Below are positions 691 through 12,465 of a DNA stretch of 12,992 nt, one piece after another; positions within the stretch are counted from its first letter, which is position 1; the number at the start of each line of letters is the position of its first letter. The translations under genes and the position numbers were made by a program. The notes beneath the pieces are model-generated. The model had not been told where the DNA came from. It did not search any database and worked only from the letters and a program-made list of their open reading frames with translations. This DNA comes from Polaribacter sp. (GTDB lineage Bacteria; Bacteroidota; Bacteroidia; Flavobacteriales; Flavobacteriaceae): contig DPRC01000190.1 of assembly GCA_003537695.1 (NCBI GenBank), positions 486 through 13,477 on the forward strand, written 5' to 3'.

Positions 691-1530
691 ATGGCAACTA
701 AAGATATTGTAAAATATGCATTTAAGGAATCCTTTTCACTAAGCATTGTGAACTTTGAAAATGCTTGCACAATATCGCATAATGAGCAGCAAAATGCATT
801 CACAATTTATTGGATTCAAGAAGGAAAAGGAACGTATAACATCGATTTTGAACAATATTTTTTTACAGATAATGTGTTGTTTTTTCTGTCTCCCGGACAA
901 GTTTTTACCGTGGAGTCAGAACAAATAAAAACAGCCTACAGACTCACTTTTCAAAGAGATTTTTACTGCATACAAACGCATGATAAAGAAGTGGCTTGTA
1001 ATGGAGTTTTATTTAATAATATTTATGAAACACCCTTTGTAAAACCTTGTAAAAAAGACATCGGAAAACTGAATTTTATTTTAGAAAGTCTAATTGAAGA
1101 GTTTCAGCAGAATGAGACTGCGCAATATGACATGCTGCAGTCCTATCTCAAGCAATTTATGATTTGCGCTGTGCGTGTAAAGAAAGAAAACCACCCCATT
1201 AAAGAAGTTGCAGAAACTCGCCTTTTTAAGGACTTTAGCTTGTTAGTTGAGAAAAATTTTAAGACGCTACATACAGTAACTTCTTATTCAGATCGCTTAG
1301 GGGTTTCCCCAAAATCAGTGACCAAGCATTTTCAAAAATTAGGGGCAGTAAAGCCGTCAACTTTCATAAAAAACCGTATTCTTTTGGAGGCAAAGCGCTT
1401 GCTTATCTATACTGATAAATCTGTGAAAGAGATTGCTTTTGAGCTTGGCTTCAACGACCCTGCTTATTTTACCCGCTCATTCACAAAAGCAGTTTTAAAG
1501 TCACCTTTGCAGTTTAAAAAAGAATATTAA
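691..1530 (+). CDS. AraC-family transcriptional regulator
   Basis: A 279-residue cytoplasmic protein with AraC architecture. The N-terminal half (about 1-160) looks like a small cupin-type sensing domain, with the WIQEGKGTYNIDF and VLFFLSPGQVFTV strands typical of AraC_binding regions. The C-terminal 100 residues carry two helix-turn-helix motifs. HTH1 lies around 193-218 (SYSDRLGVSPKSVTKHFQK). HTH2 lies around 242-265 (DKSVKEIAFELGFNDPAYF), followed by the canonical FTRSFTKAVLKSPLQF end of the AraC signature. The linker between them, FIKNRILLEAKRLL, is also family-typical. The ATG at 691 follows an A-rich leader and gives a normal-length family member. The inducer and targets cannot be read from the sequence. 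Neighbouring candidates are the BrnQ transporter upstream or a distant regulon. No operator repeat is obvious in the 75-bp upstream gap. Confidence 0.93.
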   Translation: MATKDIVKYAFKESFSLSIVNFENACTISHNEQQNAFTIYWIQEGKGTYNIDFEQYFFTDNVLFFLSPGQVFTVESEQIKTAYRLTFQRDFYCIQTHDKEVACNGVLFNNIYETPFVKPCKKDIGKLNFILESLIEEFQQNETAQYDMLQSYLKQFMICAVRVKKENHPIKEVAETRLFKDFSLLVEKNFKTLHTVTSYSDRLGVSPKSVTKHFQKLGAVKPSTFIKNRILLEAKRLLIYTDKSVKEIAFELGFNDPAYFTRSFTKAVLKSPLQFKKEY

Positions 1531-1618
1531 AAGGGATTAGGTATGCGGTTTTTTGTTCTGTAAGTTTTTAGTAACTTCAAATATTATTAGCTGCTATAAA
1601 TTAAAATAATAACTGATT

Positions 1619-1774
1619 ATGAAAGCATGTCCAAAATGTAAATCGTTCTCTAGAAAACGGATGATACGAAGAGGGTTTGCGAGGCTAGTATGCGGAGCAA
1701 AAGCCTACGCCTGTGACAAATGCAGCACACAATATGCTTGGATTCCATATATTAATGTGTCTATAAAGGTTTAA
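1619..1774 (+). CDS. Small zinc-ribbon protein with two CxxC motifs (51 aa)
   Basis: A short open frame from ATG 1619 to TAA 1772-1774 encodes 51 residues. It has CPKC at residues 4-7 and CDKC at 32-35, the spacing of a treble-clef or zinc-ribbon knuckle pair that would bind one Zn(II). Between the knuckles is a strongly basic stretch (SRKRMIRRGFAR), and the tail is aromatic (YAWIPYI). The coding call rests on the paired knuckles, an intact frame, an A-rich leader and a strong terminator immediately after the stop codon. Small ribbons of this type (CPKC, a basic region with G-F-x-R, then CxxC) occur widely as uncharacterised proteins. Nucleic-acid or protein binding is a guess from the charge. 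There is an extra Cys at residue 25. No specific family name is claimed. Confidence 0.75.
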   Translation: MKACPKCKSFSRKRMIRRGFARLVCGAKAYACDKCSTQYAWIPYINVSIKV

Positions 1775-1809
1775 AAAAGCGGCACAATTATTATTTGTGC
1801 CGCTTTTTT
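1773..1809. terminator. Bidirectional intrinsic terminator between the zinc-ribbon gene and rseP
   Basis: A perfect 9-bp GC-rich stem (GCGGCACAA at 1779-1787 with TTGTGCCGC at 1795-1803) encloses a 7-nt loop. It is flanked by six A on the left and six T on the right. The A-tract and T-tract symmetry makes it a U-tailed hairpin in both directions. It would terminate both the + strand zinc-ribbon transcript and the convergent - strand rseP transcript, which ends 13 bp beyond. Confidence 0.92.
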
Positions 1810-1821
1810 AAGAGTAGTTAT

Positions 1822-3168
1822 TTAACTAAATAATCTAAAAATATCATTTCCATTTGCAAAAAGCAACAAGGTAATTAATAAAATAAACCCAACTATTTGC
1901 GCATATTCTAAAAACTTATCTCCTGGTTTTCTACCGGTAATCATTTCCCAAAGGGTAAAAACTACATGCCCACCGTCTAGTGCGGGAATTGGTAATAGGT
2001 TCATGAAACCAAGCATAATCGATAGGAAAGCAGTAATATTCCAGAAAGATTCTGCACTCCATTCTTCAGGGAAAATACTTCCAATAGAGATGAAACCACC
2101 TAAACCCTTATAAGCACCAGTGCTTGGGTTAAAGATCTTTTTTAATTGCTTTACATAGTCGGTAAGCGTTTTCCAAGATTTATTTAAGCCTGCAGGAACG
2201 GCTTCTGCAAATGAGTATTCATAATCTGCTAATTTGTAATAGCCTAATTTCTCTAAATCACTAAAAGGCAATTGTAAAATCCCAACGCCTATTTTTCCAT
2301 CGCTCGTAACTTTTACTGGTATTTCTTTTATTTCAGCACCCCTTTTTACGGTCACTTGGATTTCTTGATTTTGGAACTTATTTAATTGTGCTTGCGCTTC
2401 ATCAAAATATCTTATTGCGTTTCCATTAATGCCAACAACAATATCTTTGGCCTGTAAATCTGACGTTTTATTTGGAGAGTCTTCTGAAAGTCCTGCAATT
2501 GCAAAAGGATATCTTGGTGATAAAAAAGCACCAGCTTCTTTTCCACGATCCATTAATTGAGAAATAAAATCTTCTGGAATTTCTTTATCTACAACTTGAC
2601 CATCTCTTTCAATTTGATAACTGTTTCCGTTAATAAACTCTAAAGCGAGTCCTCCAAATTTCTTTACTTTTTGACCGTCTACAGTTAAAACTTTATCACC
2701 GGTCTGTAGGCCTAAATTTTTTGCTAATTGATTGGTTACCCAGACACCATCTTTTACATTTTCATTTGGTAAATAGCGCTCACCATACACCCACATTAGC
2801 ATGATATAAATAAAAATTCCTAAAACGAAATTCACAAAAACACCCCCCAGCATTATAATAAGACGCTGCCAAGCCGGCTTGGAACGAAACTCCCAAGGTT
2901 GTGGAGGTAAAGCCATCTGTTCAGTGTCCATACTTTCATCAATCATTCCAGCGATTTTCACATACCCTCCTAAAGGAATCCAACCGATACCATAAACCGT
3001 ATCTCCAATTTTTTTCTTGAAGATTGAAAATTTATAATCGAAGAAAAGGTAGAATTTTTCTACTTTAATTTTAAATAATTTTGCAGGGATAAAGTGCCCT
3101 AATTCGTGCAAAACAATTAGCAAAGATAAACTTAGTATAAATTGTGATGCTTTTATTAATATTTCCAT
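1822..3168 (-). CDS. rseP: RIP site-2 metalloprotease RseP (M50 family)
   Basis: A 448-residue inner-membrane zinc protease, close to the 450 residues of E. coli RseP. The first transmembrane helix carries the zinc-binding HELGH motif at residues 21-25. A second hydrophobic block (about 103-127) contains GGVFVNFVLG. Two PDZ-like regions follow, roughly 138-200 (GLQTGDKVLTVDG) and 220-295 (DLQAKDIVVGINGN). The C-terminal membrane segment holds the third zinc ligand in the LDG motif (D398, within LLPIPALDGGH), and the protein ends with a final helix. Family members cut transmembrane segments of anti-sigma factors and clear signal-peptide remnants. In this lineage the substrates are not known from the sequence. 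The ATG at 3168 places HELGH correctly in helix 1 and lies downstream of a good promoter. It is transcribed alone, divergent from the SCO gene and convergent with the zinc-ribbon gene. Confidence 0.97.
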   Translation of the reverse strand: MEILIKASQFILSLSLLIVLHELGHFIPAKLFKIKVEKFYLFFDYKFSIFKKKIGDTVYGIGWIPLGGYVKIAGMIDESMDTEQMALPPQPWEFRSKPAWQRLIIMLGGVFVNFVLGIFIYIMLMWVYGERYLPNENVKDGVWVTNQLAKNLGLQTGDKVLTVDGQKVKKFGGLALEFINGNSYQIERDGQVVDKEIPEDFISQLMDRGKEAGAFLSPRYPFAIAGLSEDSPNKTSDLQAKDIVVGINGNAIRYFDEAQAQLNKFQNQEIQVTVKRGAEIKEIPVKVTSDGKIGVGILQLPFSDLEKLGYYKLADYEYSFAEAVPAGLNKSWKTLTDYVKQLKKIFNPSTGAYKGLGGFISIGSIFPEEWSAESFWNITAFLSIMLGFMNLLPIPALDGGHVVFTLWEMITGRKPGDKFLEYAQIVGFILLITLLLFANGNDIFRLFS

Positions 3169-3197
3169 TCGAGGTTAAATCTTAATTAAAAAAGTAA

Positions 3198-3228
3198 CAA
3201 ATGTACAATTTTCAAGAGAGTTGTAAAA
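3198..3228 (-). promoter_or_regulatory. Candidate rseP promoter (Bacteroidota type)
   Basis: Read on the minus strand, TACATTTG (3205 down to 3198) is an exact match to the Bacteroidota -7 consensus TAnnTTTG. It lies 19 nt downstream of TTTT (3228-3225), which differs from the -33 consensus TTTG at one base. The start codon is about 30 nt further on, leaving a short leader as is usual in this phylum. Confidence 0.65.
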
Positions 3229-3277
3229 GAACTATTCCTTGTTGCTTTTTATTTTAACATAGATTTTAGGTGTATAT

Positions 3278-3321
3278 TATTTTTGATTGCGCTTCTCTAG
3301 TATTTTTAAGTCGTATTTTTG
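3278..3321 (+). promoter_or_regulatory. Candidate promoter region of the SCO gene (two -7-like elements)
   Basis: TATTTTTG occurs twice, at 3278-3285 and 3314-3321, and each copy fits the -7 consensus TAnnTTTG exactly. Neither has a convincing TTTG at the right -33 distance. The downstream copy would give a leader of roughly ten bases before the ATG at 3338. Which copy is used, if either, cannot be decided from sequence in this T-rich region. Confidence 0.35.
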
Positions 3322-3337
3322 TAAAAAAAAGAAGTAC

Positions 3338-4018
3338 ATGGAGCTCAAATTCTTTAAAAAATCACTTCCCACATTTATTTTTTTAGCGGTGTTTTCGGCA
3401 GTGGTAATTCCAGTTTTTTATAACCTATTAAAGGTAGATAAAAAACTCAAAGTGTACAGTCCTGCAGATGTAAACCCTCGTTTGGTAGATTTTTCAATGA
3501 AGCACATTACAAAAGACCATACCATTGCCGATTTTAAACTAAGCAATCAGAATGGAGAAATTATCACCAATAACACGTATGCCAATAAAATTTATGTTGC
3601 AGACTTTTTTTTTACGCGCTGTCAAAGTATTTGTATTGCGATGGCTTATAATATGAGTGAATTACAAGATTTTTACAAGAATGACAAGGATATTATGTTC
3701 CTTTCCCACTCGGTAACACCTGTTATGGACAGCGTTGCTGTATTAAAAGAATATGCGGAAAGAAAGGGTGTGATTGATGAGAAATGGAACGTTACTACGG
3801 GATCTAAAAAAGACATTTATGAGTTGGCTAGAAAAAGTTATTTTGCTGTTTTAGATGAAGGAAATGGGGATGAAGATGATTTTATCCACACAGAACAATT
3901 TGTTTTGGTCGATAAAGAAAGACGTATCCGTGGATATTACGATGGTACTGAGAAAGAAGAGATGTTAAAATTAAAGGAAGATATTGCGCTATTAAGTGCG
4001 GAATATGCATCTAAATAA
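3338..4018 (+). CDS. SCO1/SenC family protein (membrane-anchored copper/redox assembly factor)
   Basis: A 226-residue protein anchored by one N-terminal transmembrane helix (about 10-30) with a periplasmic thioredoxin-like domain. The SCO metal and redox site is visible. It consists of two cysteines in a CxxxC spacing (C95 and C99, in FFFTRCQSICIAM) and the distal histidine H184 in FIHTEQFVLVDK. The LVD strand is the family signature. SCO proteins deliver copper to the CuA site of cytochrome oxidase or act as thiol reductants in its assembly. The usual CPxxCP prolines are absent here (Q and I instead), although all three ligands remain. The ATG at 3338 is preferred to a TTG at 3287. The upstream start would add 17 residues (RFSSIFKSYFCKKKKY after the initiator) and would run through a promoter-like element. 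The gene lies 51 bp upstream of feoA on the same strand. A functional tie between copper handling and iron uptake is inference only. Confidence 0.9.
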   Translation: MELKFFKKSLPTFIFLAVFSAVVIPVFYNLLKVDKKLKVYSPADVNPRLVDFSMKHITKDHTIADFKLSNQNGEIITNNTYANKIYVADFFFTRCQSICIAMAYNMSELQDFYKNDKDIMFLSHSVTPVMDSVAVLKEYAERKGVIDEKWNVTTGSKKDIYELARKSYFAVLDEGNGDEDDFIHTEQFVLVDKERRIRGYYDGTEKEEMLKLKEDIALLSAEYASK

Positions 4019-4022
4019 CCTG

Positions 4023-4051
4023 TTTAGAAAAATCTTAAATGATCATCTTTG
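4023..4051 (+). promoter_or_regulatory. Candidate feo operon promoter
   Basis: CATCTTTG (4044-4051) differs from the -7 consensus TAnnTTTG only at the first base. TTTA (4023-4026) lies 17 nt upstream and is one base off the -33 TTTG. Together they sit just after the SCO stop codon. The leader to the TTG start at 4070 would be about a dozen bases. Read-through from the SCO gene is equally possible. I could not recognise an iron-responsive operator here. Confidence 0.45.
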
Positions 4052-4069
4052 CACCTTAAATAAAAAATA

Positions 4070-4300
4070 TTGAGCACGATTGCATCCTTACGTATTGGTG
4101 AAATGGGCTATATTTCTGAAGAATCTTTGGATGTTATTCCGTTAAAATTATTGGAAATGGGTTGTTTGCCTGGAGCTGAGGTACGGCTAGTACAGATTGC
4201 ACCATTAAAAGACCCTTTATATATATGCGTCAATGGAAGCCATTTGGCAATTAGAAAAGAAACGGCAGCAAAAATAAAAATCCTAAAAGTAAATTTGTAA
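4070..4300 (+). CDS. feoA: Ferrous iron transport protein A (FeoA)
   Basis: A 76-residue cytoplasmic SH3-like domain protein. The family pattern is complete: an N-terminal ASLRIGEMGYI strand, then LKLLEMGCLPGAEVRLV (the L-x-E-x-G-x-x-P-G-x-x-V turn), and a C-terminal GSHLAIRKETAAKIKIL strand. FeoA is thought to bind FeoB and modulate Fe(II) import; its exact action is unsettled. The start is a TTG at 4070. The next in-frame ATG (residue 12) would delete the conserved first strand, so TTG is the better choice. The stop codon overlaps the feoB start by one base (TAATG), which points to translational coupling. Confidence 0.94.
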   Translation: MSTIASLRIGEMGYISEESLDVIPLKLLEMGCLPGAEVRLVQIAPLKDPLYICVNGSHLAIRKETAAKIKILKVNL

Positions 4301-6408
4301 TGCCTAAAAACAATATCAAAGTCGCTTTAATTGGAAATCCGAACACAGGTAAAACCTCACTGTTTAACCAGTTAACAGGTTTAACTCAAAAAGTTGGCAA
4401 TTACCCAGGAGTAACTGTAGATAAAAAGCAAGGGACTTCTAAATTGTCTGCAACACAAAATGCAATTATTACAGATTTACCAGGAACATATAGTATCAAT
4501 CCTACTTCCATAGATGAAAGTATTGTTTTAAAAACCTTACTTAAAAAAGATATTAAAGAATCTCCGGACGTAATTTTAGTGGTTGCAGATGTAGAAAACT
4601 TGAAGAGAAATTTACTATTGTTTTCTCAAATTAAAGATTTAGAAATCCCCACGGTTTTGGCTATAAATATGGTAGACCAAATGAGTAGAAAAGGAATTTC
4701 TATAGATTTAACGGCTTTAAAAGAAGAGTTAAATACAGAAGTAGTTTTAATTAGTGCTCGAAAAAACACAGGAATTGAAGCTGTAAAAGATGCAATTATA
4801 AAGTGTCATATTGCTGCAAAGGCAACTCCAATGTGCGACAATAAAAAGATTGACCCTGCATATTTTGATCAGTTGAAAGCAATCAATCCAAACTATACTT
4901 TGTATGAGTTGTGGCTAATGGTTACACAAAAAAATTTTCCAGAAGGCATTTCAAAACAAGAGAAAGAACAGTTGCTTTCTTTTAACAAAGATGTCTCTAA
5001 ATTAAGGAGATACCAGCACAAAGAAACTATTTATAGGTATCAAGAAATCAATAAGGTTTTAAAGAAAACGTATCTTGTTGACAAAAGTAAAGCAACCGAC
5101 ATTCGGGCGAAATTGGATAAAATTTTTACGCATAAAATATTTGGGTATTTTATATTCTTACTCGTTTTACTACTTATTTTTCAAGCGATTTTCGATTGGT
5201 CTTCGCTACCAATGGATTTGATTGACACCACCTTTGCACAGTTATCAGATTTTGCGCGAAGCAACCTGCCTGTTGGGGTGCTCTCTGATTTAATTGTTGA
5301 GGGAATTATTCCTGGTATTGGAGGAGTTATTATTTTTATTCCACAAATTGCGATTTTATTTTTGTTTATAGCGGTGCTAGAGGAAACAGGGTATATGAGT
5401 CGGGTTGTTTTTTTGATGGACAAAATTATGCGCCGATTTGGAATGAACGGAAAGTCTGTAATTCCTTTAATTTCTGGGACGGCATGTGCAATTCCAGCAA
5501 TTATGGCGACAAGAACTATTTCCAGTTGGAAAGAGCGCTTAATTACCATTTTGGTAGTTCCTTTTACCACTTGCTCTGCAAGATTGCCAGTATATGCGAT
5601 TTTAATTTCACTCATAATTCCGGAAACAAAAATATTTGGTTTCTATAATTTACAGGCATTTACGCTCCTAATGTTATATGCTTTAGGTTTTGTGACTGCT
5701 ATTTTATCAGCGTATATATTGCAGAGAACATTAAAAATAAAAAGCAGCTCTTTCTTTGTAGTAGAAATGCCAAACTATAAACTACCCTCTATTAAGAACG
5801 TATTGTTTGATGTTTTAGAAAAAACAAAAGCTTTCGTTTTGGGAGCGGGAAAAATTATTTTAGCACTGTCGGTAGTCTTATGGTTTTTAGCCTCTAATGG
5901 TCCAGAATCGTACAAGAACGCTGAGAAAAACACCCTAGATAAAGCAGAAAACGAGCATTTAGGATCAGATGAGCTTCTTCAAAAAGTAGCAGCAGCAAAA
6001 CTAGAGAGCTCTTATATAGGGATTATGGGGAAATCTATAGAACCCGCAATTAGACCTTTAGGTTATGATTGGAAAATTGGAATTGCCTTAATTACGTCTT
6101 TTGCAGCAAGAGAGGTTTTTGTAGGTACTTTAGCAACTATTTATAGTGTGGGATCAGATGATGAAAACACGACAACAATTAAAGAAAAAATGCGTTCGGA
6201 AATTAACCCAGTAACAGGAGAAAAAATATTTAATTTTCCAGCAGGAATGTCTTTACTTGTTTTTTATGCTTTCGCAATGCAGTGTATGGCAACTTTAGCC
6301 ATTGTAAAAAGAGAAACTAAAACATGGAAATGGCCGTTAATTCAACTTTTTGGAATGACCGGATTGGCTTATGTTTGTTCATTAATTGTATTTCAAATTC
6401 TTAAATAA
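4300..6408 (+). CDS. feoB: Ferrous iron transport protein B (FeoB), GTP-dependent Fe(II) transporter
   Basis: A 702-residue inner-membrane Fe(II) permease with an N-terminal G domain. All GTPase motifs are present: G1 GNPNTGKT (12-19), G2 around T39 in NYPGVTV, G3 DLPG (59-62), G4 NMVD (123-126, the usual FeoB version of NKxD) and G5 SAR (152-154). A helical spacer (about 170-280) leads to a polytopic membrane region. That region has two inverted Gate-type segments, including ISGTACAIPAIMATR and PFTTCSARLPVYA with their conserved cysteines, and the C-terminal AAREVFVGTL segment. It is slightly shorter than E. coli FeoB (773 residues) but complete. Both ends overlap the neighbouring genes by one base in TAATG, so feoA, feoB and the Cys-rich mini-protein form one translationally coupled unit. 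Control by iron is expected from the family but no operator is visible. Confidence 0.98.
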   Translation: MPKNNIKVALIGNPNTGKTSLFNQLTGLTQKVGNYPGVTVDKKQGTSKLSATQNAIITDLPGTYSINPTSIDESIVLKTLLKKDIKESPDVILVVADVENLKRNLLLFSQIKDLEIPTVLAINMVDQMSRKGISIDLTALKEELNTEVVLISARKNTGIEAVKDAIIKCHIAAKATPMCDNKKIDPAYFDQLKAINPNYTLYELWLMVTQKNFPEGISKQEKEQLLSFNKDVSKLRRYQHKETIYRYQEINKVLKKTYLVDKSKATDIRAKLDKIFTHKIFGYFIFLLVLLLIFQAIFDWSSLPMDLIDTTFAQLSDFARSNLPVGVLSDLIVEGIIPGIGGVIIFIPQIAILFLFIAVLEETGYMSRVVFLMDKIMRRFGMNGKSVIPLISGTACAIPAIMATRTISSWKERLITILVVPFTTCSARLPVYAILISLIIPETKIFGFYNLQAFTLLMLYALGFVTAILSAYILQRTLKIKSSSFFVVEMPNYKLPSIKNVLFDVLEKTKAFVLGAGKIILALSVVLWFLASNGPESYKNAEKNTLDKAENEHLGSDELLQKVAAAKLESSYIGIMGKSIEPAIRPLGYDWKIGIALITSFAAREVFVGTLATIYSVGSDDENTTTIKEKMRSEINPVTGEKIFNFPAGMSLLVFYAFAMQCMATLAIVKRETKTWKWPLIQLFGMTGLAYVCSLIVFQILK

Positions 6409-6524
6409 TGCAAGAAATATTCGTTTATATATTATTGATTTTCGCTTTGTTTTTTCTGGTAAAAAAATACGTATTGCCATCGAAGTCAAAAGGAAACTGT
6501 AATACAGGTTGTGACTGTCATTAA
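6408..6524 (+). CDS. FeoB-associated Cys-rich membrane mini-protein (38 aa)
   Basis: A 38-residue frame starts at the ATG that overlaps the feoB stop (TAATG, shared base 6408) and ends with TAA at 6522-6524. It has one N-terminal transmembrane helix (residues 3-18, IFVYILLIFALFFLV), a KKY basic flank, and a cysteine cluster at the C-terminus (C-N-T-G-C-D-C-H). This is the architecture of the FeoB-associated Cys-rich membrane proteins that follow feoB in many bacteria. The cluster could bind iron or take part in redox control of the transporter. That role is inferred from family context and is not shown by the sequence. The one-base overlap strongly supports its expression in stoichiometric coupling with FeoB. 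Confidence 0.88.
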   Translation: MQEIFVYILLIFALFFLVKKYVLPSKSKGNCNTGCDCH

Positions 6525-6598
6525 AAGGGCGCATAAATTTAATATGAGTTCTCTACAATAATCTCTATTGTTTGAGATCTTTAACAAAACAAAAAACC

Positions 6599-7147
6599 AT
6601 GAAAAAATTAATTTTAGTATTTACCGTTTTTGCATTTGTACTTATGAGTGCGACCAAAACCTTTGCACAAAAATGGAAAAAAATGGACACAAGTCCAATG
6701 GACGCTGCCACTTTTCCAGATAACTGGAGGGTTTCAGATAAAGTATTAAAGGTAGTTTACGGTCGCCCACAATTAAAAGGCAGAGATTTAGAGCAGTTAG
6801 CACCAAAAGATAAAGTTTGGAGAACTGGAGCCAATGAAGCGACAGAGATTACGTTTTATAAAGATGTGCTTTTTGGAGGAAAAGAAGTGCCGTCAGGAAC
6901 GTACTCTTTATTTACAATCCCAGCAGCAGGAAGCTGGATTGTTATTTTAAATTCAGCGAGAAATGTTTGGGGTCATTATACCTACAAGCAAGAAGAAGAT
7001 GTTGTGAGAGTTGCTGGAGTTGTTTCTTCATCAGTGGAAAATATAGAGGTTTTTTCTATGGTTTTCGAGGAGGATATGACGCTTAAAATGGGCTGGGCAA
7101 AGGTCATTATTTCTGTGCCAATTGCTTTGAATAGCAAAAAAGAGTAA
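6599..7147 (+). CDS. Secreted DUF2911 domain protein
   Basis: A 182-residue exported protein. A typical Sec signal peptide occupies residues 1-23 (KK start, hydrophobic core, ending TFA before QK, a type I signal-peptidase site). The rest is one DUF2911 domain with its signatures: VVYGRPQLKGR (about 52-62), KVWRTGANEATEI (about 72-84), a GTYSLFTIP strand (about 100-108) and NVWGHYTYKQEEDVVRV (about 122-138). DUF2911 is common in Bacteroidota and has no assigned function. The ATG at 6599 is chosen because it begins exactly at the signal peptide. A TTG at 6572 would add nine polar residues in front of it. It lies 74 bp after the feo operon with no clear promoter or terminator between, so co-transcription with feo is possible. 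A strong hairpin terminator follows. Confidence 0.93.
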   Translation: MKKLILVFTVFAFVLMSATKTFAQKWKKMDTSPMDAATFPDNWRVSDKVLKVVYGRPQLKGRDLEQLAPKDKVWRTGANEATEITFYKDVLFGGKEVPSGTYSLFTIPAAGSWIVILNSARNVWGHYTYKQEEDVVRVAGVVSSSVENIEVFSMVFEEDMTLKMGWAKVIISVPIALNSKKE

Positions 7148-7176
7148 TTTTTTTAAAAGACAAATAAATTATCTTT

Positions 7177-7212
7177 AAAAGAGGCTTTCAAATTGTTTTG
7201 GAAGCCTCTTTT
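7177..7212. terminator. Strong intrinsic terminator after the DUF2911 gene
   Basis: A 16-bp stem (7177-7192 with 7197-7212) with a single U-G wobble and a TTGT tetraloop. The core is AAAAGAGGCTT on the left and AAGCCTCTTTT on the right, so the base of the stem itself supplies the U-tract. It closes the transcript of the DUF2911 gene and insulates leuS, whose promoter begins about 20 bp further on. Confidence 0.93.
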
Positions 7213-7230
7213 AATTTAAATTAAATCAAC

Positions 7231-7261
7231 TTTTCACTTAGAAAGAATAAACGTAAATTTG
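7231..7261 (+). promoter_or_regulatory. Candidate leuS promoter (Bacteroidota type)
   Basis: TAAATTTG (7254-7261) exactly fits the -7 consensus TAnnTTTG. It lies 19 nt downstream of TTTT (7231-7234), one base off the -33 TTTG. The layout is the same as that found for rseP. The start codon is 22 nt downstream, so there is no room for a long leader or a T-box element. Confidence 0.68.
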
Positions 7262-7283
7262 CGGCTTAATCAAGTAAATAAAA

Positions 7284-10200
7284 ATGCAATACAACCATCA
7301 AGAAATAGAAGAAAATTGGCAAAAGTTTTGGGCAGAAAATCAAACTTTTAAGGCTGAAAACAATTCTAAAAAGCCAAAATATTATGTGTTAGATATGTTT
7401 CCTTATCCAAGTGGAGCAGGATTGCATGTTGGGCATCCTTTGGGATATATTGCAAGTGATATTTATGCGCGTTACAAGCGTCACAAAGGTTTTAATGTGT
7501 TGCACCCTCAAGGATATGACTCTTTTGGTTTGCCAGCAGAGCAGTACGCAATTCAGACAGGACAGCATCCAGCAAAAACTACAGAAGCGAACATTGCAAC
7601 GTATAGAAAACAATTAGATAAAATTGGTTTTTCTTTTGATTGGAGTAGAGAAGTTCGCACTTCAAATCCTGAATATTATAAATGGACACAATGGATTTTT
7701 ATTGAGCTTTTTAACTCTTGGTATAATAAAGATACAGAGAAGGCAGAAGACATTACTACATTAGAAAAAATATTTAAGACAGCAGGAAACACTGCTGTAA
7801 ATGCAGTCTCAGACGAAGACATACTTCTTTTTTCGGCAGCAGAGTGGGCCGCTTATTCAAAAATAACACAAGAAGAAATTCTATTACAATATCGACTGAC
7901 ATTCTTATCTGACACCGAGGTAAACTGGTGTCCGGGTTTAGGAACTGTTTTGGCAAATGATGAAATTTCCAACGGAGTTTCAGAAAGAGGAAGCCACCCT
8001 GTGGTCCGTAAAAAAATGACTCAATGGTCTATGCGAATTTCTGCATATGCGCAGCGCTTGTTAGATGGATTAGAAACTATTGATTGGCCACAGCCTTTGA
8101 AAGACTCTCAAACCAATTGGATTGGAAGAAGTCAGGGAGCAATGGTTTCTTTTAAGGTTGCAAACGGAACTGAGAAAACAACTTCTGAAGTAAAGCTATC
8201 GTATAAAGAGTTAGAGGCTTTAAAAGTTTTAAGACAAAATTTATCAAAGGCAGAAACAATGCTTTGGGATGAATTGAAAAATAAAAAAGGTGCAGCAAAG
8301 TTTAGAAAAAAATATACAATAGGTGCTTTTTTAGTAGATTATGTCTGTTTGGCAAAAAATATAATTATTGATTTCTCTGGAAAAGAAGACGAGGTAGCGA
8401 GAACTGCCTATTTTGAAAAGGAAGGTTTTAATATCGTTCGTTTTTCAAATGAAGCCGTAATTGAAAACGTACTTCAGGTAGTTTCTAAAATTAACTCGGC
8501 AATTCAATTTCCAAAATCAATTGAAAAATCAGTCACAAAAGAAACCGTTGTAAAAAAAGAAAATCAATTTAAAATTGATGTTTTTACAACAAGACCAGAT
8601 ACTATTTTTGGAGTTTCTTTTATGACATTAGCTCCAGAGCATGAGTTGGTGTCTAAAATTACGACAGCTGCTCAAAAAGAAGCTATCGAAACCTATATCA
8701 AGGCAACTGCAAAAAGGTCTGAACGCGATCGAATGGCGGATGTGAAAACTATTTCGGGTGCTTTTACAGGTGCCTATGCAATTCATCCTTTTTCGGGAGA
8801 GAAAGTTCAAATTTGGATCGGGGACTATGTATTAGCAAACTATGGCACAGGAGCAGTAATGGCCGTTCCTTGTGGCGATCAGCGTGATTATGATTTCGCA
8901 AAACACTTTGACATCCCAATTCCTAATATTTTTGAAGATGTAGATATTTCTGAAGCTGCACATGCGGGTAAAGACGGGACAAAAATAGCAAACTCAGATT
9001 TTTTAAGTGGATTGAAATATAAAAAAGCTTTAAAATTATCCATATTTGAAATGGAGAAACGCGGTTTTGGTTATGGCAAGATAAATTATCGTTTGAGAGA
9101 TGCTGTTTTTAGCAGACAGCGGTACTGGGGAGAACCGTTCCCTGTCTATTATAAAGATGGAATGCCGCAAATGATTGATGCAAAGCATTTGCCAATTGTA
9201 CTTCCAGAGGTGGAGAAATATTTACCAACGGAAGATGGACAACCCCCTTTAGGGAATGCAAATACGTGGGCATGGGATTCTAGAGCAAAGAAAGTTGTTG
9301 CGAATGAAAAACTTAAAAATAAGACTGTATACCCTTTAGAATTAAACACAATGCCAGGTTGGGCAGGAAGTTCTTGGTATTTTAATAGGTATATGGATGC
9401 TACAAACACAGCAGCATTTGCAAGTAAAGAGTCTTTAGAATATTGGAAAGAGGTAGACTTATATATTGGAGGCTCAGAGCATGCAACTGGACACTTATTA
9501 TATGCGCGTTTTTGGCAAAAATTCTTATTTGACAAAGGCATTGTCCCGGTTGATGAGTTTGCTAAAAAATTGATCAATCAAGGAATGATTTTAGGAACCT
9601 CTGCTTTTGTTTACAGAGCAACGGCTTTTGTGAAAAATGGCTGTTCTACAGAAAAATCCAATGATGATGTTCTTGAGAAAATACCAACAGTCCTCGTTTC
9701 TAAGAATTTATTTAGTTCTGATGATGAGTTTGAAGCGGTTGTTAAAAATTATTTATTAGACAAAGGGTTTTTGAATCCTAATTTTGCAGATTTAGTGATG
9801 TTTGTAAAGACTCCAATCCATGCAGATGTCTCTTTGGTAAATGCATCAGATGAGTTGGCTATTGAAGCCTTTAAAACGCATGCTTTAAATGCGGATTATA
9901 AAAATGCCGAATTTATTCTAGAGGAAGGAGTTTACAAGGTAGGACGAGAAGTAGAGAAAATGTCTAAGTCGAAGTACAATGTAGTAAATCCTGACGATAT
10001 TGTTGCCGAATACGGTGCAGATGCACTGCGTTTATTCGAAATGTTTTTAGGCCCTTTAGAGCAAGCAAAACCTTGGAAAACATCAGGTATTTCTGGGGTC
10101 GCTTCTTTTTTAAAGAAGTTATGGAAACTGTATTTTAACGAAGCTGGTTTTGAAGTTTCAAAAGCGAAAGCAACAAAAGAAGAGTTGAAGGTTTTACACA

Positions 10201-10637
10201 AAACAATAAAGAAGGTTCAAGAAGATATCGAGAGTTTTTCTTTTAATACATCGGTCTCTACCTTTATGATTGCTGTAAATGAGTTTACTGTTTTAAAATG
10301 CAATAAGCGTGCAATATTAGAACCGTTATTGGTTTTATTATCACCCTATGCACCGCATATTTCAGAAGAATTATGGAGTAAGTTGGGAAATAAGGAATCA
10401 ATTTCTACAGCAGATTTCCCAATTTTTGAAGCAAAACATTTAGTGGAAAGCACCAAAAACTATCCAGTTTCTTTTAATGGGAAAATGCGTTTTACGTTGG
10501 AACTTGCATTAGACTTGTCAAAAGAGCAAATCGAGAAGACGGTTTTGGAGCACGAAAAAACAATTGCGCAACTAGCAGGAGCGGCACCTAAAAAGGTAAT
10601 TATTGTTCCAGGTAAAATTATAAATATTGTGGCATAA
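7284..10637 (+). CDS. leuS: Leucyl-tRNA synthetase with a DUF559 domain inserted in the editing domain
   Basis: A 1117-residue class I synthetase that charges tRNA-Leu; E. coli LeuRS is 860 residues. The catalytic core shows the HIGH-type motif HVGH (48-51, in PYPSGAGLHVGHPLGY), the segments VFSRQRYWGEP (608-618) and GGSEHATGHLLYARFW (729-744), and KMSKS (892-896). The CP1 editing domain begins after NWIGRS (278-283). It contains the threonine-rich FTTRPDT (434-440) and GTGAVMAVP (521-529) with the editing aspartate D532. The anticodon-binding and C-terminal regions follow. Three segments account for the extra length: a Bacteroidota-type stretch at about 150-212, a DUF559-like insertion at about 294-428 (separate entry), and a long acidic and hydrophobic stretch at about 783-843 before KMSKS. 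The frame is intact throughout and all catalytic motifs remain, so the enzyme should be functional. The gene is monocistronic as far as can be seen. Confidence 0.98.
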   Translation: MQYNHQEIEENWQKFWAENQTFKAENNSKKPKYYVLDMFPYPSGAGLHVGHPLGYIASDIYARYKRHKGFNVLHPQGYDSFGLPAEQYAIQTGQHPAKTTEANIATYRKQLDKIGFSFDWSREVRTSNPEYYKWTQWIFIELFNSWYNKDTEKAEDITTLEKIFKTAGNTAVNAVSDEDILLFSAAEWAAYSKITQEEILLQYRLTFLSDTEVNWCPGLGTVLANDEISNGVSERGSHPVVRKKMTQWSMRISAYAQRLLDGLETIDWPQPLKDSQTNWIGRSQGAMVSFKVANGTEKTTSEVKLSYKELEALKVLRQNLSKAETMLWDELKNKKGAAKFRKKYTIGAFLVDYVCLAKNIIIDFSGKEDEVARTAYFEKEGFNIVRFSNEAVIENVLQVVSKINSAIQFPKSIEKSVTKETVVKKENQFKIDVFTTRPDTIFGVSFMTLAPEHELVSKITTAAQKEAIETYIKATAKRSERDRMADVKTISGAFTGAYAIHPFSGEKVQIWIGDYVLANYGTGAVMAVPCGDQRDYDFAKHFDIPIPNIFEDVDISEAAHAGKDGTKIANSDFLSGLKYKKALKLSIFEMEKRGFGYGKINYRLRDAVFSRQRYWGEPFPVYYKDGMPQMIDAKHLPIVLPEVEKYLPTEDGQPPLGNANTWAWDSRAKKVVANEKLKNKTVYPLELNTMPGWAGSSWYFNRYMDATNTAAFASKESLEYWKEVDLYIGGSEHATGHLLYARFWQKFLFDKGIVPVDEFAKKLINQGMILGTSAFVYRATAFVKNGCSTEKSNDDVLEKIPTVLVSKNLFSSDDEFEAVVKNYLLDKGFLNPNFADLVMFVKTPIHADVSLVNASDELAIEAFKTHALNADYKNAEFILEEGVYKVGREVEKMSKSKYNVVNPDDIVAEYGADALRLFEMFLGPLEQAKPWKTSGISGVASFLKKLWKLYFNEAGFEVSKAKATKEELKVLHKTIKKVQEDIESFSFNTSVSTFMIAVNEFTVLKCNKRAILEPLLVLLSPYAPHISEELWSKLGNKESISTADFPIFEAKHLVESTKNYPVSFNGKMRFTLELALDLSKEQIEKTVLEHEKTIAQLAGAAPKKVIIVPGKIINIVA
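8163..8567 (+). other. DUF559 (Vsr-like endonuclease fold) domain inserted inside leuS
   Basis: About 135 residues (294-428 of LeuRS) replace what in E. coli is a short hairpin loop between NWIGRSxG...FxV and the VFTTRPDT strand. The recognisable DUF559 core spans about 314-403 (8223-8492). It has an L-R-x-N-x-S-x-A-E-x-x-L-W start (316-328), AKFRKKYTIGAFLVDYVCL (338-356), a central IIIDFSG strand (360-366), AYFEKEGFNIVRF (375-387), and a closing V-I-E-N-V helix (392-396). These match the DUF559 order of an LR-N-x-T-x-A-E-x-x-LW helix, FRRQ-x-x-IG-x-x-VDFVC, an (I/V)-E-x-DG-x-QH strand, R-x-x-x-L-x-x-x-G-x-x-V-x-RF, and an E-x-V-L-x-N helix. A lysine- and threonine-rich linker (about 404-428) leads back into the editing domain. 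D352 of VDxVC is kept. The E-x-D-G-x-Q-H block is altered to D-F-S-G-K-E-D and the following segment is shortened. Domain identity is my own pattern recognition. Confidence 0.85.
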
Positions 10638-11007
10638 GAAGAATAGTGCTTTATTGTTTTTTTCTCTTGCGAGAGGATTGAAAGACCTTTTGTAGACGAA
10701 AGGGAAACTTCTTTTAAGTAGCTTATTATTGGTTTGTGGTCTATAAAAACAGTTTAAATTGAAGGTTAGGTCTTTTTATATTAGCACACAGATGCCTGTA
10801 AAAAAGATTTATTTTACTGCTATAATGAAGATTTTATATCAATTAAAAGAAGGAAGTATTGCAGTTGCTAGTTTTTGAAACAGTAATTTTAAAAAACGAT
10901 TCATTCAGAGGTGCAGCTCAAATGTAAATTGTTTTGCGAGACTTGTAACGGCTTTTTAATTTGGGTATCTTTAGCTAAATATTAAATATTAAAACAAGAA
11001 AATTACT
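10638..11007. other. 370-bp intergenic region between leuS and the histidine kinase
   Basis: No gene is supported here. There is a 7-bp hairpin with a UAGA loop (10686-10703, including one U-G pair). It is followed after a few bases by a T-rich stretch and could be a weak leuS terminator. A small 28-codon frame (10792-10878) and its continuation after a TGA (to about 10959) have no recognisable protein features. The last 65 bases hold the candidate kinase promoter. No tRNA, repeat or mobile-element ends were recognised. Confidence 0.5.
10943..10973 (+). promoter_or_regulatory. Candidate histidine-kinase promoter
   Basis: TTG (10943-10945) is followed after 20 nt by TATCTTTA (10966-10973), one base from the -7 consensus TAnnTTTG. 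The spacing is the same as or one base longer than at rseP and leuS. The TTG start codon is 34 nt further on. Confidence 0.5.
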
Positions 11008-12465
11008 TTGAGTCGTTTTAAAAACATTTCCTTAAAAATTCGTATTTTTTTATCCATGATATTATTGGTGTTATTGGCATCTGTTTTAATTTTGGTGGTT
11101 ACGGTGTATCAATATGATGAGCAAACAAAAGAGTATAATATTCAGCGTTTTGAGCGTAAAGAAACCATTTCTAAAAAGACGATTGATTTAGAGCTTTCAA
11201 ATAAAACAACACATGAGGTAAATACTGCAAACTTATCGAAGATATTTCAAAATAGAATTTATGAAATATCTTCCATAAATAAATTAAATATTAGTCTTTA
11301 CGATTTAGAGGGAAAGTTACTAAAAACTTCTTTTGGGAATGTTTTTGAAAAAACAGAAAAGGGACCATTAACCGAGTTTCTTATTTCTGAACTTTCGCAA
11401 AACTCAAATCATCGGGTTTTAAAAAACAAACAAATTGAAGGGTTAAGTTACCAAACGTCTTACTCATATATAGAGGACCCTAAATTTAAAAGAATCGGTA
11501 TTTTAGAGCTACAATTTACCCAGGATAATACAGAAATTGAACAAGAGCTTGAGGCTTTTATTTACAGGTTAGGGTTGGTCTATTTGTTGATGTTTTTATT
11601 AGCAATCTCGATTGCTTACTTCTTGTCAAGCTACATTACTCAGTCTATAAAAACCATTTCAGATAAAATGCAATTGACGCGATTAAATGAGCGCAATGAG
11701 AAAATTATTTTAGACAAAGCCAGTTTAGAAATTAAAATTTTAGTAGATGCATATAATAGTATGATAGATCAGCTAGAAGAAAGTGCTGCAAGGTTGGCAA
11801 AAAGTGAGCGAGAGCAGGCTTGGAGAGAAATGGCAAAACAAGTGGCACATGAAATTAAAAATCCACTGACACCAATGCGTTTAACTGTCCAAAATTTTGA
11901 ACGGAAATTCAACCCCAAAGATGAAAACATAAAAGTTAAATTGGCCGAATATAGCAAGACTTTAATTCAACAAATAGATGTAATGAGCGCTATTGCCTCT
12001 GCTTTTTCTGATTTCGCAATAATGCCAATTCAGAAAAAAGAGAAAATTGAAATTATAAGTGTTGTGAAATTGGCTTTAGATATTTTTAATGATACATCGG
12101 TGAGATATCAAACAGAGGAGGCTGAATTGCATGCCTTTTTAGATAAAACGCAGTTAATAAGGGTTGTAACAAATTTAGTTAAGAATGCACTCCATGCAAC
12201 AGAGAATGAAGAAGTTCCATTAGTAAATGTAGATGTGTTTTCTGAAGGAGATACGGTAAAAATAGTAGTTTCAGACAACGGTAAAGGGGTTTCTAGCGAT
12301 GTAAAAGATTTAATTTTTGAGCCTAAATTTACTACGAAGTCAAGTGGGATGGGACTGGGATTACCGATGATAAAAAACATTATAGAGGCGTATGAGGGAG
12401 AAATTTATTTCACTTCTACTGAAGGTCAGGGCACCATTTTTACGGTAGTTCTGCCAAAGAAATAA
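11008..12465 (+). CDS. NtrY-like membrane sensor histidine kinase
   Basis: A 485-residue inner-membrane kinase. The first transmembrane helix (about 13-33) and the second (about 187-207) enclose a periplasmic sensor region of about 150 residues of no recognisable family. A HAMP-like linker (about 208-262) leads to the H-box with phospho-acceptor H281 in VAHEIKNPLTPMRL. This version of the motif is typical of the NtrY/HPK4-like group. The ATPase domain has an N-box NLVKNA (389-394), G1 DNGKG (423-427), an F-box IFEPKFTTK (436-444) and G2 GMGLGL (447-452), so the kinase should be active. The start is a TTG at 11008: an in-frame stop lies six codons upstream, and the first ATG (11056) would cut into the first membrane helix. 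No response regulator is adjacent, so the partner must be encoded elsewhere. The next gene is an enoyl-CoA hydratase 92 bp away. Confidence 0.93.
   Translation: MSRFKNISLKIRIFLSMILLVLLASVLILVVTVYQYDEQTKEYNIQRFERKETISKKTIDLELSNKTTHEVNTANLSKIFQNRIYEISSINKLNISLYDLEGKLLKTSFGNVFEKTEKGPLTEFLISELSQNSNHRVLKNKQIEGLSYQTSYSYIEDPKFKRIGILELQFTQDNTEIEQELEAFIYRLGLVYLLMFLLAISIAYFLSSYITQSIKTISDKMQLTRLNERNEKIILDKASLEIKILVDAYNSMIDQLEESAARLAKSEREQAWREMAKQVAHEIKNPLTPMRLTVQNFERKFNPKDENIKVKLAEYSKTLIQQIDVMSAIASAFSDFAIMPIQKKEKIEIISVVKLALDIFNDTSVRYQTEEAELHAFLDKTQLIRVVTNLVKNALHATENEEVPLVNVDVFSEGDTVKIVVSDNGKGVSSDVKDLIFEPKFTTKSSGMGLGLPMIKNIIEAYEGEIYFTSTEGQGTIFTVVLPKK

Follow-up and report, generated by a model that had tools for sequence, protein, structure and literature searches.

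A DUF559 nuclease-type domain in the reading frame of a Polaribacter leucyl-tRNA synthetase, and its often palindrome-bounded relatives in other housekeeping enzymes

The known Vsr-like homing endonucleases (I-Bth0305I / EDxHD) reside in introns, and homing-type nucleases in general are found in essential genes behind an intron or an intein. I-Bth0305I is a member of the EDxHD family of homing endonucleases. The RAP domains are Vsr-like RNA-binding modules of eukaryotic organelle proteins, FASTKD4 being an example. Here we describe a DUF559 domain of Vsr type that lies in the reading frame of leuS, the gene for leucyl-tRNA synthetase (LeuRS), in Polaribacter sp. (assembly GCA_003537695.1, contig DPRC01000190.1); the 12,992-nucleotide stretch analyzed is called the window, and coordinates refer to it. 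Palindromic elements (RPEs) are described in frame within genes of Rickettsia (PMC10969869). Also described are REPtrons, in which palindromes flank a transposase gene, and a CGTC class of REP sequences without a known dedicated transposase (PMC3733652). No description of in-frame DUF559 cassettes in housekeeping proteins was found among the open-licence papers searched.

The host gene, leuS, spans 7284..10637 (forward strand, as do all features below) as a single open frame of 1117 residues. Its product matches the NCBIfam profile TIGR00396 (leuS_bact) over the entire length with 872 bits (cut-off 548), the signature motifs HVGH, TTRPDT, and KMSKS are all legible, and the protein is clearly a member of the bacterial LeuRS family, its closest named relatives being Polaribacter proteins. 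As the preliminary description had held, the frame is uninterrupted and carries about 135 additional residues. The whole insert comprises residues 294-428 (8163..8567); it lies where the CP1 editing domain begins and separates NWIGRSQGAMVSFKV from the VFTTRPDT strand. The NWIGRS motif (residues 278-283; 8115..8132) lies just upstream, and VFTTRPDT (residues 433-440; 8580..8603), the first CP1 editing motif past the insert, is intact. Alignment with the LeuRS of Thermus thermophilus pairs window residues 208-293 with 151-237 and residues 428-774 with 240-582; since residue 293 thus falls on 237 and residue 428 on 240, the insert occupies the place of two residues there. Among the genomes listed, none had a second LeuRS gene; presumably, then, the enzyme is functional with the insert present, the window genome being about 70% complete.

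Pfam DUF559 (PF04480) matches residues 314-407 of the window LeuRS with 62.8 bits (E 3.3e-17; cut-off 20.6), and the isolated 135-residue piece scores 67.7 bits against the same model. In a sequence search of the PDB up to an E value of 1, the sole match of the piece was 3hrl, an endonuclease-like protein (5.6e-10). Ranked by similarity to the predicted fold of the insert, a crystal structure of a DUF559 protein comes first, the homing endonuclease I-Bth0305I second, and Vsr third; the domain is thus predicted to have the Vsr-like catalytic fold of the EDxHD / I-Bth0305I type. The folded part (residues 304-410 as used for substitution analysis; 8193..8513) is predicted to fold while tethered between an N-terminal linker (residues 294-303; 8163..8192) and a C-terminal linker (residues 411-428; 8514..8567). 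These are the places of the left and right palindromes in less eroded copies, and the predicted local distance difference test score is below 50 at residues 295-306 and 414-427.

Less eroded copies have an intact set of putative catalytic residues (E, D, and E-x-D-G..H), which the window copy possesses only in part. The conserved Glu of AE..LW (residue 31 of the piece; 8253..8255) and the Asp of VDY/VDF (residue 59; 8337..8339) are retained; the counterpart of E-(V/I)-D-G-x-(I/Y)-H is DFSGKE (8370..8387), in which Ser replaces the second acid and the His has gone through a short deletion. The lost residues are needed for Vsr-type chemistry. The 90% cluster to which the window sequence belongs holds 40 member sequences from 35 contigs, and 41 of 71 LeuRS rows, counting the window's own, share the insert type; the insert is therefore not an artefact of a single assembly.

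The preliminary description had called for mapping the insert across related LeuRS proteins, and alignment of these 71 rows reveals 41 of the window's type ("old"), 16 of a second type ("young"), 11 empty sites, and three with another short insert, proportions that are not frequencies because most rows were picked for having DUF559. The genus group takes in records named Polaribacter and Tenacibaculum; three of the 71 rows (L043, L044, and L045) belong to different families of the same order, and the young rows L056, L059, and L080 to different genera of the same family. The window duplicate (L001) was excluded, and two genes each bear two locus numbers (L028/L051 in G020; L024/L119 in G004). 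The distance from NWIGRS to TTRPDT is 31-32 residues at empty sites, 163 in the window, 161-171 in old, and 167-214 in young rows. The young type is defined by E-(V/I)-D-G-x-(I/Y)-H, which is hence present in all 16; in the young inserts that were read, the flanking peptides (e.g., SPTLSEGKG or SFPKGEE and SLSSGKGVRDR) are palindromes read through in translation. Old inserts carry VEFSGKED or a near variant in 40 of 41 rows (L160 was missed by the motif search), and none of those inspected as DNA, the window insert included, contains palindromes. Short in-frame repeats without DUF559 occupy the same loop in L040, L041, and L044. Those of L040 (G015) and L041 (G028) are two more repeat types; the first, VIASETKQ...SSQTPRNDE, resembles the CGTC REP class by appearance, and the second is ERSRSDQDVVSTTLNH.

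The same domain is found inside other proteins. DUF559 was detected in 93 of the 146 genus-group genomes, with many matches in frames of about 1070-1210, 844-872, or 1026-1082 residues. Among the matches listed, the 30 loci from this search showed the domain in frame in LeuRS, RecG, HsdR, and the C-terminal part of MetH, besides solo copies, and the phylum loci listed added further cases (in that second set, likewise of 30 loci, the domain was unlocated in four, with no result for L060, L070, and L076 and the wrong frame for L055). In RecG, the insert precedes the PPH(I/V)LVMTATPIPRTL motif. Twelve of 59 relatives hold it within a continuous match, whereas most others give a two-piece match in a frame of about 700-735 residues; 11 empty sites were read, one of them in the window's own genome (L112). 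The RecG of G006 (L110) contains one in-frame palindrome and no DUF559, and it groups with the full L027 at support 100. The RecG inserts of G012, G008, and G018 are without palindromes, in parallel to the window LeuRS.

A scan of named contigs used eight in-frame domains as queries and kept the best 80 loci, and so favors the in-frame subfamily: 41 loci were LeuRS, 16 RecG, one HsdR, 19 other long frames, and three solo. The host was named by its best curated profile in 14 of 15 proteins, L235 giving DUF559 only. The hosts so named are a RecB-like helicase, RecJ, IleRS (two proteins), IspF, RsmA, ValRS, IspG, PurL (FGAM synthase), ArgB, a TrmH/RlmB-type methylase, MetH, RecG, and HsdR, the RecB-like, ValRS, and methylase proteins falling under their profile's cut-off. 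With LeuRS, 14 kinds of host carry the domain in frame. It is internal in LeuRS, RecG, MetH, HsdR, the RecB-like helicase, RecJ, IleRS, and PurL, whereas it stands at the N terminus of IspF, ArgB, and the methylase and at the C terminus of RsmA and IspG; a contig end truncates the ValRS locus. The records of RsmA and L235 are labelled as candidate phyla (Staskawiczbacteria and Nomurabacteria) and one IleRS lies in a Bdellovibrio-labelled metagenome-assembled genome, labels that may be binning errors. A profile of the eight domains searched against 395 phylum genomes had 27 of its 28 best matches in frames of at least 425 residues, and solo DUF559 genes of about 120-200 residues are numerous across the phylum. 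Four genomes (G312, G430, G355, and G446) have 6-10 DUF559 matches each. In L236, L238, L243, and L248 a Prevotella-type IspF has an N-terminal DUF559 extension followed by coding palindromes (L236 is profile-confirmed as IspF).

The domain is often bounded by hairpins. In the best 80 named loci, hairpins with C/T arms and a perfect 7-bp stem occur at 1.63 per kb within 450 bp of the domain (117 hairpins) against 0.062 per kb elsewhere in the same loci (33 hairpins), a 26-fold difference; they stand on both sides of the domain in 38 loci and on one side in 25. The 20 solo loci hand-picked from 19 genomes of the phylum contain 53 hairpins, of which 42 are within 500 bp; 13 loci have them on both sides and four on one side. 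The insertion site was read in 38 of the 41 LeuRS loci (L224 and L253 were missed by the motif and L234 apparently uses another site). With a 6-bp stem, the tails outside upstream hairpins (57/58) have a C content of 0.49 and a G content of 0.10, those outside downstream hairpins (68) a G content of 0.46 and a C content of 0.11, and the inner sides are near 0.2; the tails are thus asymmetric and on average inverted. Long inverted matching ends were seen by eye in some solo copies, such as L343. Palindromic ends are present in young LeuRS, RecG, MetH, and HsdR copies. One palindrome pattern was found at 36 sites in 18 of the 146 genomes, several of them within RecG inserts, and the reversed pattern gave no site in any genome listed; at this low copy number, for the tested pattern at least, a high-copy REP family was rejected. 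In-frame solo palindromes without DUF559 occur near the N-termini of several enzymes, which by reading alone are KMO-like (L183, L184, and L185), HemW-like (L168), MenD-like (L165 and L173), MurD-like (L163), and TrpF-like (L170).

Because its kin, many of them palindrome-bounded, sit in frame in other housekeeping enzymes, the window insert looks like the tamed descendant of a mobile element, apparently of a kind not described before. We consider it likely that a palindrome-bounded cassette encoding a Vsr/homing-type nuclease entered LeuRS and was domesticated there as a folded, probably nucleic-acid-binding domain. The ancestor would have been a small mobile cassette, a Vsr/I-Bth0305I-type nuclease frame (DUF559) between inverted, hairpin-forming, C/G-rich repeats. 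The frame is open through the cassette ends in genic copies, and the cassette thus sits in loops or termini of host proteins. The first stage would be the state seen in many hosts, where the domain, often palindrome-bounded, is in frame and relatives have empty sites. The nuclease would have cut DNA and so moved or copied (homing) the cassette; its fold, the fidelity of its lineages to their sites, and the inverted orientation of the ends are in keeping with such movement. In the window lineage the palindromes, the catalytic His, and one acid are now gone, in an order that we can only surmise, and the leftover fold would have been kept for some function as a tethered domain beside CP1. To go by the RAP relatives of Vsr, which bind RNA, its present role would most likely be the binding of nucleic acid, be it tRNA-Leu or the LeuRS-tRNA complex.

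Several observations weigh against this domestication of a mobile cassette. Movement was not seen directly: the age of the compared inserts is similar to that of the split between the genes that carry them, and the median synonymous divergence (dS) of insert and core is 0.947 and 0.928 in LeuRS and 1.22 and 1.02 in RecG. Copies within one genome are 46-70% identical where the domain was located (G330, G267, and G026; in G244 and G450 the motif was located in one copy each and no pair was compared). A target duplication was not recognized by eye among the RecG rows, of which 11 were empty, 18 full (L024/L119 being a single gene counted twice), and one reduced to a solo palindrome; the flanks of these rows are diverged. 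No qualifying hairpin lies near the domain in 17 of the best 80 named loci and three of the 20 solo loci, and the tested palindrome pattern has at most four sites in any one genome. The window insert itself lacks palindromes, and the single pattern that was tested does not occur in the window genome, the completeness of which is about 70%. Lastly, Foldseek at E values up to 0.001 returned 3hrl alone.

A possible, if tentative, alternative is active homing, in which DUF559 endonuclease lineages dedicated to each site cut the empty allele and are copied in by repair, the cassette spreading through LeuRS and RecG with neither intron nor intein. The nearness of the predicted fold to I-Bth0305I is congruent with it, and the "homing endonuclease" profile of PADLOC weakly matches the RecG copy (2e-5), although not the window piece or a young LeuRS copy. 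The trees were built by a quick method from short alignments (for the domain, 119-127 columns), with Shimodaira-Hasegawa-like approximate likelihood ratio test support and midpoint roots; in them, domain clades track the host site. Among 94 domains, the old LeuRS (41; support 100) and RecG (18; support 98) inserts each form one clade, as do the young LeuRS inserts (16) at a weak 73, while MetH (8) needs two changes; the host label changes seven times, against 48.5 times when shuffled. Among 99 domains, the RecG, IleRS, RecB-like, and RecJ inserts each form one group and LeuRS needs eight changes, one of them forced. On the host-gene trees, full and empty alleles interleave, with nine changes in LeuRS and nine in RecG, at least eight of the latter forced. 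Moreover, the LeuRS genes of L049 (old) and L047/L123 (young) group at support 99 and yet differ in insert type, being 77-96% alike, mostly near 90%, in 150-nt LeuRS windows. Against homing, insert and core diverge roughly in proportion, the dS of the insert resembles that of the host, sliding nucleotide identity at the LeuRS junction gave no clear co-conversion tract, and losses together with recombination could yield the same pattern. Random recent transposition was rejected on the within-genome divergence of copies and the fidelity of domain clades to host site. A viral origin was also rejected, the 62 loci in viral contigs being weaker matches with a best identity of 46%.

A rather unlikely alternative regards the inserts as ancient accessory domains, inherited vertically, selected because they benefit the host (e.g., in nucleic-acid quality control or defence), and frequently lost, the palindromes being relics or independent repeats in the same loops. 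Selection, which also bears on the domestication favored here, agrees with it. The ratio of nonsynonymous to synonymous divergence (dN/dS), from our own Nei-Gojobori script and, for old-type LeuRS, the 695 of 820 pairs with a core dS of 0.1-1.2, is 0.135 for the old-type domain (residues 304-410) and 0.096, 0.095, and 0.101 for three core parts; the young LeuRS domain (12 sequences) gives 0.131 and the RecG domain (16 sequences) 0.129. Both LeuRS insert types are under purifying selection, which is strong in every type measured, and values this near to those of the core indicate that the domain is translated and kept. Judged from the sequences, the window lineage has retained the domain despite the loss of residues conserved among its relatives. 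The insert is moreover about as old as its host, the palindrome pattern is low in copy number, and short repeats without DUF559 are found in the LeuRS loop and in other genes. On the other hand, 89 of the 99 domains, comprising in-frame inserts and three solo copies, fall on one side of a branch with support 98, two HsdR inserts grouping with the remaining solo genes; on the midpoint root this is one clade across 14 kinds of host, which requires repeated capture. Furthermore, the hairpins tightly flank the domain even in solo genes, and their ends are inverted.

Removal of the insert by RNA or protein splicing, or its skipping by translational bypass, is very improbable. To judge by sequence, less eroded copies have inverted ends that could pair in mRNA, but the old type has lost its palindromes, the frame is continuous, and a fold is predicted for the domain in its tethered state. 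Conservation is that of a protein domain and not of its linkers, for which dN/dS is relaxed to 0.955 (residues 292-303) and 0.448 (C-terminal) in old-type LeuRS from fewer pairs, and to 0.38-0.51 in the young LeuRS and RecG copies. No intein profile is among the Pfam and NCBIfam hits listed (for LeuRS, the best 25 of NCBIfam). That the CP1 loop lengthened gradually throughout the lineage and merely resembles DUF559 is scarcely credible, for although the insert on the KMSKS side of LeuRS varies in such a manner (dN/dS 0.53), the matches to DUF559 and the PDB are significant, the predicted fold is that of a nuclease with homologues both solo and in other hosts, and alleles of 31 and 163 residues alternate abruptly inside the genus group.

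The preliminary description had offered either a mobile insertion at the protein level or a domain recruited to act on tRNA or on the editing domain. A mobile origin is strongly supported by the presence of the same cassette in 14 kinds of host, many copies having inverted palindromic ends, and by the empty sites in relatives of LeuRS and RecG. Of the recruitment, the selective maintenance stands, in spite of the catalytic loss. Neither of the contrary outcomes named in that description was obtained, since the DUF559 match is significant and there are separate nuclease-fold homologues, both as solo genes and within other hosts. That interpretation is therefore upheld in part: origin and selection agree with it, and movement itself was not directly seen.

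The fast-evolving second insert of LeuRS occupies residues 774-888 (9603-9947), just before KMSKS. The span from KKLINQGMI to KMSKS is 88-168 residues in relatives in which both motifs were found, and in some of these the insert holds palindrome-like peptides (LSLGEGLGE in L047). The neighbors of leuS that were scanned (691-12462) are ordinary: an AraC-type regulator, a PDZ-bearing M50 protease, SCO1/SenC, FeoB, a DUF2911 protein, and a sensor histidine kinase.

Taken together, the nuclease domain appears to remain in the finished protein of many unrelated enzymes, and in one lineage leucyl-tRNA synthetase seems to have adopted it as a domain of its own. If so, enzymes would have a way to acquire a folded domain in a single step. 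The inserts would also be a natural data set of the sites at which essential proteins tolerate insertion, and they would offer a testable candidate for the mover of a bacterial palindromic repeat family. The case is evenly balanced for a new class of protein-level mobile element, seen mostly in Bacteroidota, in which a homing-type nuclease domain with coding palindromes would sit unspliced and in frame in essential enzymes, spread or persist at the same loop of LeuRS, IleRS, RecG, and MetH, and be open to exaptation as a permanent domain of an aminoacyl-tRNA synthetase. For annotators, DUF559 matches within housekeeping genes are real.

Among the known systems, the RAP domains belong to eukaryotic organelle proteins, and the domain of the window has no RAP match among its Pfam hits. 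Solo DUF559 genes (PF04480; PRK09767-like; COG2852), of which the phylum has many, represent the domain itself; most of the sampled in-frame inserts differ in forming one clade and in an N-terminal Y-x-T....Y-x-L-L motif. REPtrons are alike in having a gene flanked by palindromes and repeats that also occur alone, some inside genes; RAYT, however, is an HUH/tyrosine transposase, whereas DUF559 has a Vsr-type nuclease fold, and the palindromes here look like another sequence family. The RPEs are likewise palindromic repeats that lie in frame in unrelated metabolic genes and are read as protein, but they are of about 150 bp and encode a conserved peptide rather than an enzyme. In the present case two inverted palindromes enclose a nuclease-type domain, and purifying selection acts on an eroded copy. 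The window insert shares with them the in-frame insertion and the empty sites in relatives, and has no palindromic ends. Unlike I-Bth0305I and its EDxHD kin, the domain described here stays in the frame of its host with neither an intron nor an intein, and the window copy has lost catalytic residues.
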